Shown one piece after another: positions 28,967 through 34,482 of a DNA stretch of 44,779 nucleotides (position 1 is the first letter of the stretch; each line of letters begins with the position of its first letter). This stretch comes from Deltaproteobacteria bacterium (GTDB taxonomy: Bacteria; SZUA-79; Acidulodesulfobacterales; Acidulodesulfobacteraceae), in NCBI GenBank assembly GCA_023381755.1, contig JAMCUF010000028.1, forward strand, positions 1 to 44,779, in the 5' to 3' direction. The translations under genes were made by a program, and so were the position numbers. A model generated the notes under the pieces. That model ran no database searches. It saw nothing but the letters and a program-made list of their open reading frames with translations, and was not told where the DNA came from.

Positions 28967-31324
28967 TTATTCCGAAGATGCACTTGCTGTTTTTGGCAAT
29001 GCCCATGTTGCATAATTGCATTTTGGATAATTTGAGCAGCCGTAAAATTTCCTGCCCTTTTTTGTTCGTTTTTCTACCAAATAACCTCCGCAGCCGGTCG
29101 GACACTCAATTTTGGATTTATTATGTTTAGCGGGCACAGGTTTTATATTTTTACATTCGGGGTATCCGCTGCACGCAAGAAATCTGCCAAATCTGCCCAT
29201 CTTTACTACCATCGGTTTTCCGCATTTCTCGCATACTTCGCCGGTCTCATCCGTTCCGGTGTTATTTTCTATATTTTCTTCTATATTTTCTTTTGGAATC
29301 TCTTTAGTGTTTTTACATTCGGGGTATCCGCTGCACGCAAGAAATCTGCCAAACCTGCCCATCTTTACCACCATCGGTTTTCCGCATTTCTCGCAAATTA
29401 TATCTGTGGGCTCCGAAGCACCCTTTATGTTTTTAATGTTTATTTTGGCTTCCCCAAAGCTTTTCATAAATTGATTATAAAAATTTGTCAGGAGCTCCTT
29501 TCTGCTCGTAATTCCATTTTCGATTCCATCAAGCTTCGATTCCATATTTGCCGTAAATTTTAAATCCACGATATCAGAAAAACCCGCCTTTAAAGTATCG
29601 GAAACTATCATGCCCAGCTCGGTCGGTTTAAACTTTAGCGTGGAACCGCCTCTTTTTGAAATGCCTGCAGATTCTGTCGTCATAGCCACATAATCCTTAG
29701 TTTTTATATTCGCTATGATGCTTTGATATGTGGACGGCCTTCCGATGCCATTTTCATCTAAGGCTTTTACTAAAGTTGCCTCGGTATATCTTGAAGGAGG
29801 GGAAGTAAAATGTTGAAAGGTGTCAACCCTTTTTATATCGGCAGGATCGCCTTTTGCGAGAAGCGCAAAAATTTTTAATATAGGCTTGTCGCGGGATTCT
29901 TCTTCACCCTCTTTATTGGCTGCACCTGTTACAGGTTCATTTATTACTTTTTGGAATCCGTCAAAATTTAAGACACTCTCAGTCATTTTAAAAGTATATA
30001 TATTATTTTTACCGGTTTGCGGTTCGTTGTAATTGCCCTGTATAATTATACTATATTGGTCGTATATGCTTTCGCTCATAAACGAAGCTAAGAAATAAGC
30101 CCATATTAGATTATATAGTTTATATTCATCGTGGCTTAGGTATTCTTTAATTTTTTTAGGCGTCAATAAAACATTGGCAGGCCTTATCGCTTCGTGCGCA
30201 TCCTGTATCTTTCCTACTTTCTCTTTCCTTTTGTTAATTCCGTTTTTGTTTAAATATTCTTTGCCGAATGAATTTTCTATAAATTTTTTAGCTGTCGCAA
30301 CGGATGCCTCGGATATTCTTGTTGAATCCGTCCTCATATAAGTTATAAGACCGATAGGTCCCAAGGGTTTGCTGCCTGCTCCTTCCACCACCCCCAACTC
30401 TACCCCTTCATAAAGCTTCTGGGCTATGAACATTGTTTTTTTAACCGGAAATCTTAAAATTTTAGCGGCTTCCTGCTGTAGCGTACTTGTAATAAAGGGA
30501 AGGGGCGGTTTTCTGGAAAATTGTTTTTTGCCTATTTCGTCTATTTGATAATTATAGGTTTTTAATAGGTTTTTTTTTAATCCGGAAGCCCCTTCCTCGT
30601 TTTTTATTTTAGGTTCTTTTCCGTTGATTTTAACGAGCTCGCCCTCTATACTTATGGTTTTGCCATCTATTTTTGAGCCGTTCCGGACCCAGCTTCCAAT
30701 TTCATTAATTTTCTTGCCCTTTATATCAAAAAGCGCCGTTACCGTCCAAAACTCCTCTTTTTTAAAGTTCTTTATTTCCTTTTCTCTTTCGACAATCAAA
30801 TATAAAGCAACCGATTGAACCCTGCCCGCCGAAAGCCCCCTGCGCACCTTTTCCCATAAAAACGGGCTAAGATTATAACCGACGAGCCTGTCCAAAATTC
30901 TTCTTGCTTTTTGGGATTCATACATAGCCTCGTTCAAGGAAATGGGGTTTTTTATAGCGTTTTTGACGGCGTCTTTTGTTATTTCATTAAAAAGCACTCT
31001 TTTCACGTCCGGTTTTTTACCCTTAATGGTATCGATAACCTCTTTGATATTCCATGCTATAGCTTCGCCTTCCCTATCCGGGTCCGGCGCAAGATATACA
31101 TTTTCCACATTTTTTGCTATTTTTTTAATTTCCTCGATGGTCTTTTCTTTGCCCTTTATAATTTCATATTTGGGTTCAAAGTTATTTTTTATATCTACGC
31201 CAAGGGTATTTTTGGGTAAATTTTTAATATGTCCAACCGTAGCCTTAACTATAAAACCATCGCCCAGATATTTATTTATGGTATGCGCTTTCGATGGAGA
31301 TTCCACAAGTACAAGATTTTTCAT
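28967..31324 (-). CDS. topA: DNA topoisomerase I
   Basis: A 785-residue type IA topoisomerase that relaxes negative supercoils. The TOPRIM domain opens with LVLVESPSKAHTINKYLG and has APDPDREGEAIAW. GLITYMRTDSTRIS contains the nucleophilic tyrosine, and GIGRPSTYQSIIANI is the late conserved segment. The C-terminus holds three four-cysteine zinc ribbons. The first two (in DNA 29310-29395 and 29148-29233) are almost identical in protein and DNA, a recent duplication of 54 codons. It follows the DprA-like gene by 28 bp, the usual dprA-topA order. Confidence 0.97.
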   Translation of the reverse strand: MKNLVLVESPSKAHTINKYLGDGFIVKATVGHIKNLPKNTLGVDIKNNFEPKYEIIKGKEKTIEEIKKIAKNVENVYLAPDPDREGEAIAWNIKEVIDTIKGKKPDVKRVLFNEITKDAVKNAIKNPISLNEAMYESQKARRILDRLVGYNLSPFLWEKVRRGLSAGRVQSVALYLIVEREKEIKNFKKEEFWTVTALFDIKGKKINEIGSWVRNGSKIDGKTISIEGELVKINGKEPKIKNEEGASGLKKNLLKTYNYQIDEIGKKQFSRKPPLPFITSTLQQEAAKILRFPVKKTMFIAQKLYEGVELGVVEGAGSKPLGPIGLITYMRTDSTRISEASVATAKKFIENSFGKEYLNKNGINKRKEKVGKIQDAHEAIRPANVLLTPKKIKEYLSHDEYKLYNLIWAYFLASFMSESIYDQYSIIIQGNYNEPQTGKNNIYTFKMTESVLNFDGFQKVINEPVTGAANKEGEEESRDKPILKIFALLAKGDPADIKRVDTFQHFTSPPSRYTEATLVKALDENGIGRPSTYQSIIANIKTKDYVAMTTESAGISKRGGSTLKFKPTELGMIVSDTLKAGFSDIVDLKFTANMESKLDGIENGITSRKELLTNFYNQFMKSFGEAKINIKNIKGASEPTDIICEKCGKPMVVKMGRFGRFLACSGYPECKNTKEIPKENIEENIENNTGTDETGEVCEKCGKPMVVKMGRFGRFLACSGYPECKNIKPVPAKHNKSKIECPTGCGGYLVEKRTKKGRKFYGCSNYPKCNYATWALPKTASASSE
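29148..29233. repeat. 86-bp zinc-ribbon coding repeat, copy 1 (topA 3' part)
   Basis: Codes on the minus strand for the second CEKCGKP...SGYPEC ribbon. It differs from the copy at 29310-29395 at two positions only, both silent, at a 162-bp period. Confidence 0.9.
29310..29395. repeat. 86-bp zinc-ribbon coding repeat, copy 2 (topA)
   Basis: Codes for the first of the two near-identical ribbons. The 76 bp between the copies encode an Asn/Glu-rich linker that is not duplicated. Confidence 0.9.
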
Positions 31325-31352: not shown

Positions 31353-32438
31353 TTATTTTGTTGATTTTAATTTTTTAATAATTCCGCCGGGAAATCTTCC
31401 TATTTCCGAATTTATCTCGAGTATCGAAATATTCTTAAGAATTTCATTTGAATTAACGTTAAATTTAATATTGCTCAGTTTGATTAAATTGTCAATAGTT
31501 ATATTTTCTTTTTCTAAAGTTTTTAATATAAATTTTTGAATAGGGTTGCATTCCGTTCTATTTTTAGCCGCATTGTCATCAGTCCGGGTTAAGTTCTTAC
31601 GAATATCTTTGGCATGGCATTCCCCTCCAAATATTTTTACCGGTTTACCCGCATCCTTAAATTTTTTTATAATACTTAACAACGAACTCTTTTCCGATAG
31701 ATAAAATATAGCCATCTCTTTCGATAAATGAAAGGCAAGGCTGTTTCTAAGGGTAAATCCGTACTTTGAAGTTCTACAAAACGGGTCTAACGCGGAAAGT
31801 TGCAGAATGTTTTTAAAATCAAAATTTGAAGCTAACGATAGTCTATTTGCAGTATTGGAATTAAGCAGCGAATAATGCGGCAAGATTACCGGCGGCGAAG
31901 AGCCGTCGGATTTTTCTATAAATTCCATTTCGGCTTCGCTGTTTATTCCAACGCAAATAAAATCGGTTTTTGCTCTATCATTACTATAATAATAATCCTT
32001 AAAATTTTTTAATATATCGTTATTCGGCTTGTAAATTTTAGCATCTTTAAATCTAGACGAGGTTAAAAATAAGCCCCCGGCCGATTTTATGCTTGTGATG
32101 TTTATATCAAAATTGTTATGAGGGCTATAAATATGCAAAAATTGCGGAAGAGCGGGAGCAGAGGGTTTACCCTCGTAATTTTTTATTAGGCAGGTTGTTT
32201 TAATAGGTTTTATGCAGTATTTATCCAATATAGAAATCTCATTCAGGGCTTTTTTTATAAATTTATGGTAGCATTCGGAATTTTTAAAATTATCCTCAGT
32301 CGTTCCGTAATTATTCAGGGTTTTTTTATATACTCCCTCCGCCTTAGCTTTCAGAATAATCCTGTAATTAATATATGATAAGCTTTCGTTAACGCAAGCC
32401 GGAGCCGGCTTATAATCTTTTGCATCTGTCATAGGCAC
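31353..32438 (-). CDS. Strongly diverged DprA/Smf-like protein
   Basis: A 361-residue protein directly upstream of topA, the classical dprA position. Weak DprA traits: a segment like the RNRIIAGLS motif (FTLRNSLAFHLSKEMAIFYLSEKSSLLSIIKKFKDAGKPVKIFGG), and a C-terminal winged-helix-like domain (NPIQKFILKTLEKENITIDNLIKLS, ending SEIGRFPGGIIKKL). The glycine-rich single-strand-binding motif of active DprA (GARGID type) is not seen. It may be a DNA-processing protein that lost natural-transformation function, or a repurposed Rossmann/winged-helix protein. The start is GTG; an ATG two codons later is possible. Neither has a clear ribosome-binding site. Confidence 0.6.
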   Translation of the reverse strand: MPMTDAKDYKPAPACVNESLSYINYRIILKAKAEGVYKKTLNNYGTTEDNFKNSECYHKFIKKALNEISILDKYCIKPIKTTCLIKNYEGKPSAPALPQFLHIYSPHNNFDINITSIKSAGGLFLTSSRFKDAKIYKPNNDILKNFKDYYYSNDRAKTDFICVGINSEAEMEFIEKSDGSSPPVILPHYSLLNSNTANRLSLASNFDFKNILQLSALDPFCRTSKYGFTLRNSLAFHLSKEMAIFYLSEKSSLLSIIKKFKDAGKPVKIFGGECHAKDIRKNLTRTDDNAAKNRTECNPIQKFILKTLEKENITIDNLIKLSNIKFNVNSNEILKNISILEINSEIGRFPGGIIKKLKSTK

Positions 32439-32541
32439 ACCGGGGCATATAAGTAATACCGGTTAAACTTGGAATCATCTGTAACTTATTCAAATAATAT
32501 GATAAAATAAAAAAAATTAAAATGCTTTTTTGTTTATAAAC

Positions 32542-33903
32542 ATGATAACGGATTTTATTTTTATAAAGGGAAACAATGAATTATCCCGGTTTTTGCTAAT
32601 TTGTTTTGCTGTTATGGCATTTTTATTCTTTGTTGTCATTGCACTTCCGTTGTCTTACGGCAATACAATTTATAATAAAAACATGCCGGGCAAAGGCGGT
32701 ACAATAAAAATTGCCGCAGTGCTTCCAGCCAAAGGAAGATTTGCATATTTTAGCAAACAGTTTATAAACGGCTTACTGCTTAGCTCAAATAATCCCAACG
32801 GCTCAAAAATAAGATATATGATCGTAAATTTACCGGCCAATGCCGGTAAAACCAGTATTGGCTACGTGTTTGCCTCTTTGGCAAAAAAAGGGGTAAGCGC
32901 CGTGGTAGGCCCGATTTTTGCGGGTCAATTAAAATATTTTGCTTCTGATTCTGTTAAATTTAAAATTCCAGTAATAACGCCTTCCCCGCTTGTAACCAAG
33001 GAAGACGTTTCGCCGTATATCTTTAGTTACGGTATGACTTTAAAGCAGGAGATTAAAACGGAAATTAAATACGCCATGGATAACGGTATAAGTTCCGTTT
33101 CGGTTATATATCCTTATGACGGCTATGGGCAAAAACTTCTCGCATATATAAGGCATTTTTCAATAAAGTATGGTATTAGCATTTTGAATGCAGCTGCTTA
33201 TACCGACAAAACAACGGATTTTTTTTATAGTTTCAATTCTATCGTCCGGTTTAATAATGTCGGCAAAGGGCATATATCCAAAGCCGAAGAGGCGCAACTC
33301 GGGATTACCCCTTACAATCTTATGCATGGTATAACAAAAGTAAAGCCGCATATCCCCTTTAAAGGGCTTTTTGTAATTGGAATTCCTTCAAAGCTTAAGT
33401 TGATTTTAACTCAGCTCATGTATTACAATATTACGGGATTTCCAATATTTGGCCTGAGCTCGTTTGATTCAAAACTGTTTATAGAAAAATACGGATTTTA
33501 CATGCAAGACGCGATTTTTCCAAACGGGTTTTTTAAGCATAGCGGCAACAATGCCGTTAAAAAATTCGACGCGGCGTATAAAAAATATTACAGAGAAATG
33601 CCGAATATACTTAGCGCCGAAGGATACGACATCGGGGGGATATTGATTAAAGCTGCGGAAAAATTTCCTCTCCGCCGGGCCGCGGTTAGCGGTGGCAGCC
33701 CTATGCCCTTAGGCATAGGGCAATTACAAAACTTGCCGGCCAAAGATGTTAACGGTATTTCATTTTACGGTTCACTTTTAAGCGTTAAGTCGTACAAAGG
33801 GGTATGCGGCATCAGCCGTTTAAGCGGTAACAGGTTTAAAAAAAACCTTTACCTGTTTCAATATAAAAACAATAAAACTTATATCCTTGAAAGTCCGTTC
33901 TAA
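32542..33903 (+). CDS. Periplasmic-binding-protein-like protein (LivK/LpoA type)
   Basis: A 453-residue protein with an N-terminal hydrophobic segment (about 16-38) as a membrane anchor or signal, then a type I periplasmic-binding fold: IKIAAVLPAKGRFAYFSKQFINGLLLSS, VSAVVGPIFAGQLKYFASDSVKFKIPVITPSP, VSVIYPYDGYGQKLL and NILSAEGYDIGGILIKAA. It could bind an amino-acid-like ligand, or act as a penicillin-binding-protein activator of the LpoA kind. No ABC transporter genes lie nearby, which favours the latter. The frame extends four codons to a TTG. Neither start has a clear Shine-Dalgarno. Confidence 0.72.
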   Translation: MITDFIFIKGNNELSRFLLICFAVMAFLFFVVIALPLSYGNTIYNKNMPGKGGTIKIAAVLPAKGRFAYFSKQFINGLLLSSNNPNGSKIRYMIVNLPANAGKTSIGYVFASLAKKGVSAVVGPIFAGQLKYFASDSVKFKIPVITPSPLVTKEDVSPYIFSYGMTLKQEIKTEIKYAMDNGISSVSVIYPYDGYGQKLLAYIRHFSIKYGISILNAAAYTDKTTDFFYSFNSIVRFNNVGKGHISKAEEAQLGITPYNLMHGITKVKPHIPFKGLFVIGIPSKLKLILTQLMYYNITGFPIFGLSSFDSKLFIEKYGFYMQDAIFPNGFFKHSGNNAVKKFDAAYKKYYREMPNILSAEGYDIGGILIKAAEKFPLRRAAVSGGSPMPLGIGQLQNLPAKDVNGISFYGSLLSVKSYKGVCGISRLSGNRFKKNLYLFQYKNNKTYILESPF

Positions 33904-33966: not shown

Positions 33967-34482
33967 TTATGTCTTAAGTCTTTCCGAAACGATATTTCTA
34001 ACGCTTTCGCTTGCATCGTTTTGCATTAAGGGAAGATATTCCGCAGGTATTCTTTTTGCTACTGCCTTTCTAACCAATGTTTCGCCGTCTTTTATAATAT
34101 CTTTTAAATATTTTTCGTCTATTCTTTCGGCGACTTTAATCCTAACGATAGGTTCTTTATCATCCAAAAGCGAAGGCAAAACAGATTCGTCTATTCTTTC
34201 GGCGACGGCATGCCTTACCCAGAACGATTTATCTTTGAGCATTTTAGGCAGTTCTTTCGCATCTATTCTTTTTGCAACGATTAAACGAATCTCTTTATAC
34301 GGGTCGCTTATAAGAGGCGCTAAATTCTCAGCCGGTATCCTTGAAGCAACTTTATACCTTATATTTTCGTCTTTATCGGTTGCGGCATGGACGAGATAAG
34401 CGGGATTTACCCTGCTTACGGCGTCAAACCTTTCTTTAAAATCGCCCGTTTTTAAAATACTTATAAATTCCTCTTCGGTCAT
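33967..34482 (-). CDS. Leucine-rich-repeat-variant (LRV/HEAT-like) repeat protein
   Basis: A 171-residue protein made almost entirely of 24-residue repeats. Six units run 21-44, 45-68, 69-92, 93-116, 117-140 and 141-164, each with VAxRIxxxxL, then an acidic turn and VRxx. The 24-residue period is that of LRV solenoids, described first in Azotobacter with an N-terminal [4Fe-4S] domain. Here there is no cysteine at all, so the iron-sulfur part is missing. It probably mediates protein binding. Nearby genes give no clue to the partner. The start ATG precedes the first unit by 20 residues. Confidence 0.78.
   Translation of the reverse strand: MTEEEFISILKTGDFKERFDAVSRVNPAYLVHAATDKDENIRYKVASRIPAENLAPLISDPYKEIRLIVAKRIDAKELPKMLKDKSFWVRHAVAERIDESVLPSLLDDKEPIVRIKVAERIDEKYLKDIIKDGETLVRKAVAKRIPAEYLPLMQNDASESVRNIVSERLKT

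Follow-up and report, generated by a model that had tools for sequence, protein, structure and literature searches.

A diverged dprA descendant beside topA in a bacterial phylum with no detectable ComEC

Introduction

Upstream of topA, in a 44,779-nucleotide stretch of DNA (the window in what follows) from a deltaproteobacterium that is probably close to Candidatus Acidulodesulfobacterales, lies a gene that a preliminary description took for a degenerate dprA. Does its product really descend from DprA, and if so, what is the protein for? Colocalization of dprA with topA has been published for 14 of 24 phyla (PMC5817196); the reason for this arrangement across many phyla and the role of DprA in nontransforming bacteria are both described as open questions (PMC5817196, PMC9122126). 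Our literature searches found no prior description of the diverged variant reported here. It bears on these questions in that dprA and topA have stayed together as a unit in a lineage where ComEC went undetected and most of the DprA motifs have been lost, and the residues that are still invariant point to a part of DprA that is useful outside transformation.

Results

The gene and its neighbors

The coordinates of the gene, its parts, and its downstream partner are given in Table 1. The open frame of 361 codons in the preliminary description was confirmed and placed on the minus strand, the only one with an uninterrupted frame over this interval; the opposite strand is full of stops. The start is a GTG at position 32438, with an ATG two codons on. 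The position next to topA was likewise borne out, since topA begins 28 nucleotides downstream in the same direction, the diverged dprA being the first gene of a two-gene unit. Upstream, and divergent from it, is a periplasmic-binding-protein-like gene (32530 to 33903). A 171-residue LRV/HEAT-like repeat protein is encoded at 33967 to 34482, between that gene and a DUF488 gene. No Rfam families or tRNAs were found in the window.

Table 1. Position of the diverged dprA, its parts, and topA in the window, with the evidence for each
Feature	Coordinates	Strand	Evidence and remarks
Diverged dprA descendant	31353..32438	minus	361 codons from GTG, or 359 from ATG at 32432; ORF, orthologs, hhalign to DprA, structure
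topA, DNA topoisomerase I, downstream partner	28967..31324	minus	TIGR01051, 723.7 bits; adjacent in 27/29 loci
N-terminal helical (SAM-like) region, residues 1-95	32154..32438	minus	Predicted helices; covered by DprA structures from residue 12 on (from residue 1 in the G007 ortholog); without sequence signal
DprA-type Rossmann domain, residues 96-275	31614..32153	minus	Structure models; sequence signal alone weak, E 0.0099
TSSR motif, residues 126-129, replacing DprA GSR; R129 = SpDprA R115	32052..32063	minus	SSR invariant in 27/27
RN pair, residues 231-232 = SpDprA R208-N209	31743..31748	minus	Invariant in 27/27
Variable low-confidence linker, residues 276-295, at the place of the DprA dimer helix	31554..31613	minus	Model pLDDT <50 at 272-294; omega 0.59
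C-terminal winged helix (DprA_WH-like), residues 296-361	31356..31553	minus	hhalign E 1.3e-7 alone; Pfam DprA_WH in 8/27 orthologs; omega 0.27

Distribution in the phylum

Of 30 genomes of the phylum, 26 carry the diverged dprA, one of them as a decayed remnant. Wherever topA gave a match over the cutoff, in 24 genomes, the gene or its remnant is there as well, and the four genomes without it (G003, G012, G020, and G022) are also without such a topA match. Because these four have no assembled topA, the absences look like assembly gaps, and we rejected simple absence of the gene from some species. Adjacency to topA holds in 27 of 29 loci; at the remaining two the gene runs up to the end of its contig. 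For canonical dprA, 11 of 28 loci have topA in the flank; for a second DprA of the same phylum, described below, 0 of 29 do. Seven loci from a contig scan (L031-L037) were taken as repeats of included relatives and were not counted again.

Sequence evidence for descent from DprA

The window protein passed none of the curated DprA family cutoffs (PF02481, TIGR00732). PF02481 (DNA_processg_A) gave an E value of 0.14 and 11.8 bits, below the cutoff of 29.6, and TIGR00732 was not listed for it. Its sole NCBIfam match, to TATA-binding protein (E 0.03), and a single phmmer match among PDB sequences (E 0.52) were rejected as chance. The same part of the PF02481 profile gives a weak signal in several orthologs, and 8 of 27 orthologs have a Pfam DprA_WH match, the best at 2e-6.

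Profile comparisons were made with an alignment (A1) of 27 full or nearly full orthologs from 25 genomes, two of which have two copies; a truncated copy in G024 (L030) and the G005 remnant (L022) were left out. Canonical DprA proteins from 27 other genomes, out of 28 loci, formed a second alignment (A2), from which L075 was omitted because it has no start codon before the matched part; alignment A3 leaves out the contig-truncated L059. With hhalign, A1 and A2 aligned in order over 277 columns at an E value of 2.6e-7. Without realignment the score was 60; 100 column-shuffled controls reached no more than 20.7, and comparisons with one side reversed gave 15 to 17. Taken domain by domain, the sequence signal comes from the winged helix (E 1.3e-7); the Rossmann domain gives a weak match by itself (E 0.0099), and the N-terminus gives none. 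Among PDB sequences the A1 profile found nothing up to an E value of 10, a negative result for sequence-level homology. Beyond the phylum, a search of 386 genomes with this profile returned only the family itself and one weak match outside it (2.2e-4), which covers the RN-motif region of a 364-residue frame; to judge from its sequence, that frame encodes a canonical DprA.

The weak similarity claimed in the preliminary description is therefore real, given the 11.8 bits to PF02481, the DprA_WH matches among orthologs, and an hhalign score far above the shuffled controls. Common descent with canonical DprA, also proposed there, is well supported by the controlled hhalign comparison, the winged helix, the topA synteny, and the structure matches that follow.

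Predicted structure

An AlphaFold2 model of the window protein built on A1 (pLDDT 72, pTM 0.65) had DprA 3maj (3.9e-9), Streptococcus pneumoniae DprA (SpDprA, 3uqz), and ShosA 8zva as its top Foldseek matches in the PDB. With VIA-align, the same model gave Z scores of 14.7 to ShosA (231 residues, rmsd 4.5), 13.8 to SpDprA (228 residues, rmsd 4.4), and 13.0 to both 4ljr and 3maj. A second model, of the ortholog from G007 (pLDDT 83, pTM 0.72), gave 16.8 to SpDprA (249 residues, rmsd 3.7) and 16.2 to ShosA and 3maj, with 3maj at 4.7e-10 in Foldseek. Winged-helix rows aside, the next listed fold was YpsA (2nx2) of the SLOG superfamily, with Z scores of 10.4 for the window model and 10.2 for the G007 model. 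The likeness to YpsA is confined to the Rossmann domain (rmsd 3.6 over 149 residues for the window model); YpsA is a single domain without a winged helix, and it is a weaker match than DprA.

DprA crystal structures were thus the best or tied-best matches for two independent models. An extended Rossmann domain with an N-terminal helical domain and a C-terminal winged helix was found in the predicted models, in the structure matches, and, for the last part, by the winged-helix profile, and the three-part architecture of DprA is predicted to be kept. The preliminary description had named absence of the DprA Rossmann fold as the finding that would refute descent; in the predicted models the fold is there.

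Residues kept and lost

Residues were mapped onto SpDprA, with numbering of the window protein from the GTG, through an alignment whose Rossmann part alone is marginal. Invariant in all 27 orthologs are R129 (SpDprA R115), R231-N232 (R208-N209), S215 (S192), and S251 (S228). The glycine of the GSR motif, SpDprA G113, is serine in 27 of 27 orthologs, and G229 is serine in 25 of 27. Also lost are the SGLAxGID loop, the PG motif, and the third residue, arginine, of RNR, together with the dimer helix, the dimer-zone residues I263 and L269 having no reliable counterpart in the ortholog alignment. In the 27 canonical DprA sequences, the GSR, SGLAxGID, and RNR motifs, the PG motif, and the dimer zone are invariant or nearly so: G113, S140, G141, D147, and G229 are invariant, and I263 is isoleucine or leucine in 26 of 27. 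The motif set GSR...SGLAxGID...RNR as a whole is absent from the orthologs, together with the PG motif and the dimer zone. The statement in the preliminary description that the glycine-rich core is unrecognizable thus stands for single-sequence searches and fails once orthologs are aligned, when TSSR appears in the place of GSR, RN in the place of RNR, and several pocket positions prove invariant.

R115 (R52 in Helicobacter pylori) is reported to be important for single-stranded DNA (ssDNA) binding, and I263, Q264, and L269 are reported to lie in the dimer zone, which may also engage RecA (PMC4066776). An inversion of the acidic RecA-binding triad to basic residues was considered and dropped, the triad being unconserved in the 27 canonical DprA sequences too; for that reason nothing is drawn from a near-invariant lysine at the position of SpDprA K202. 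Orthologs of genus g2 (L020, L021, and L023-L027) are about 100 residues longer than the others, at 449 to 473 amino acids from the first ATG, and carry long insertions ahead of the Rossmann core and within the linker that leads to the winged helix.

Selection

Nei-Gojobori omega was below 1 in 49 of 49 close pairs, with a median of 0.34. Pooled by part, it was 0.39 for the N-terminus, 0.36 for the Rossmann domain, 0.59 for the linker, and 0.27 for the winged helix. Across the 33 pairs in which all three genes were unsaturated, the medians were 0.342 for the diverged dprA, 0.075 for topA, and 0.101 for the second DprA; the diverged dprA had the highest value in 33 of 33 pairs, which share ancestry and are not independent. 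The protein is clearly but loosely constrained, relaxed in comparison with topA, and so is presumably still made. Some selection, as claimed in the preliminary description, is thereby established, and it extends to all domains.

ComEC, RecA, and a second DprA

ComEC (PF03772) was detected in 0 of 30 genomes of the phylum (G000-G029), although the ComM/YifB model was over the cutoff in 26 of them, the window's own genome not included; the same PF03772 search was positive in 10 of 14 control genomes. The preliminary description had suggested a role perhaps unrelated to natural transformation, and the ComEC result supports this in the sense of a gene unlinked to ComEC-type transformation. RecA was over the cutoff in 26 of 30 genomes and RecR in 30 of 30.

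A second, motif-intact DprA is encoded elsewhere, over the cutoff, in 29 of 30 genomes; the exception, G028, is 65% complete. In the window's genome this protein is a PADLOC ShosA (5e-56) beside a phosphoribosyltransferase (PRTase) matching ShosT (6e-15). A PRTase neighbor was found at 28 of 29 such loci, the remaining locus starting near a contig end. The order pheS-helicase-PRTase-dprA2-pheT-rseP-tsaB is common to three genomes from two genera, with names read from translations except for the PRTase and DprA. Aligned with canonical DprA by hhalign, the second DprA stops before the winged helix.

We rejected the possibility that the diverged dprA is itself a ShosA. It shares with ShosA (8zva, 9vzo), a DprA-like antitoxin, the predicted fold (Z 14.7 and 16.2), but it has no PADLOC match and no adjacent PRTase, its neighbors are topA and the periplasmic-binding-protein gene, it ends in a winged helix, and a ShosA-like protein is encoded separately in the lineage.

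Discussion

Most likely, the gene encodes a DprA-derived putative DNA-binding protein that is no longer used for transformation. Stated more fully, and held with slightly better than even confidence, this is a positional dprA ortholog that lost its transformation role and would now serve chromosome maintenance as a DNA-binding accessory, monomeric or assembled in a different way, made with TopA and without classical RecA loading. The dprA of a dprA-topA unit would have lost its role in transformation in bacteria that have no detectable ComEC, and its sequence would have changed rapidly. Nucleic acid would probably still be bound by way of the winged helix, the RN pair, and the arginine that was kept (SpDprA R115); the loop for phosphate or ligand would have been rebuilt, GSR becoming SSR and SGLAxGID being lost; and the helix for dimerization and RecA hand-off would be gone. 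From a rebuilt loop and a missing dimer/RecA helix we infer an accessory that is monomeric or assembled in another way and does not load RecA classically. DNA binding, loss of RecA loading, and a link to TopA activity are all suggested by which parts were kept and which were lost. Compared with DprA/Smf (PF02481 plus PF17782; TIGR00732; S. pneumoniae 3uqz, Rhodopseudomonas palustris 3maj, H. pylori 4ljr), the protein is alike in domain order, predicted fold (Z 13 to 16.8), winged helix, place before topA, and the invariant R and RN; it differs in falling below every family cutoff, in having SSR for GSR, in lacking SGLAxGID, PG, and the dimer helix, and in belonging to a lineage where no ComEC was found.

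Against this explanation stand the fast evolution (omega of 0.342 versus 0.075 for topA), the G005 remnant, and the marginal match of the Rossmann domain when its sequence is taken alone. Dimerization is reported to be necessary for stable DNA binding by other DprA proteins (PMC12386762, PMC5817196), which weakens the suggestion that the diverged DprA binds DNA.

A serious, though in our judgment unlikely, alternative is slow decay, the gene being a relic of dprA that the cell could do without, kept open in frame chiefly as a leader cistron for topA, whose ribosome start would be supplied by the translation and the 3' end of the relic. The junction with topA fits such a role: in 20 of 27 orthologs the stop codon and the start of topA overlap in the sequence ATGA (for L019 no topA start was in range, one being found farther away, and L024 ends at a contig end), and in 16 of 27 rows, among them that of the G005 remnant, the codons for PGG read GGAGG ahead of the start of topA. 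So do the relaxed omega and the remnant itself. In G005 (genus g3; L022:1-1640, C3), a broken copy lies upstream of topA, and its last part, where the topA ribosome-binding sequence lies, can still be recognized, and the gene is therefore dispensable there. But coupling requires an open frame and not specific residues, yet the Rossmann domain has an omega of 0.36 and its pocket residues are invariant; moreover, the overlap is absent in the window's own genus, where the gap to topA is 28 to 29 nucleotides. A leader-cistron role is thus a partial rival in the genera with the overlap and leaves the constraint on the Rossmann domain unexplained. The remnant-bearing genus offers a natural comparison.

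The retained accessory could also be cast more broadly, in a form that we put forward only tentatively and think doubtful. The ancestral dprA would have been repurposed throughout the phylum after loss of the import channel, becoming a RecA-independent DNA binder with a rebuilt pocket (SSR / RN / SSL), its translation coupled to that of topA in most genera; no motif-intact DprA would remain but the chromosomally fixed ShosA type with its phosphoribosyltransferase, and the two descendants would divide the ancestral domains between them.

A different use of the rebuilt pocket, which we consider quite unlikely, would be to bind a ligand resembling a nucleotide, a role proposed for other members of the SLOG superfamily, with the winged helix signaling to DNA, possibly together with the ShosA-like DprA and the PRTase. 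In its favor, the predicted pocket is lined by an invariant signature of its own (SSR, RN, SSL), ShosA is among the top or tied structural matches, and the two proteins could complement each other, the second DprA having no detectable winged helix. The ligand is purely hypothetical, the two genes are unlinked, and the second DprA persists in G005, where the diverged dprA is broken.

That the protein is still an ordinary DprA, protecting ssDNA and loading RecA in conjugation or repair, for instance, with only its sequence diverged, seems improbable. RecA in 26 of 30 genomes and the invariant arginine important for ssDNA would suit it, and DprA is reported to be able to stimulate recombination outside transformation (PMC12386762). 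The SGLAxGID loop, PG motif, and dimer helix are lost, though invariant or nearly so in the 27 canonical proteins, and RecR of the RecFOR loader is present in all 30 genomes. A protein unrelated to DprA, like it by chance and next to topA by coincidence, would pass no family threshold and find nothing among PDB sequences with its A1 profile, as observed, but is extremely improbable given that profile, winged-helix, structural, and positional evidence all agree on DprA.

ShosTA is a known toxin-antitoxin and defense pair. The ShosTA-like pair found here (L131:3788-5399, G000:C15) lies between pheS and pheT, looks fixed in the phylum, and has an omega of about 0.10; a core-genome version of ShosTA is unusual.
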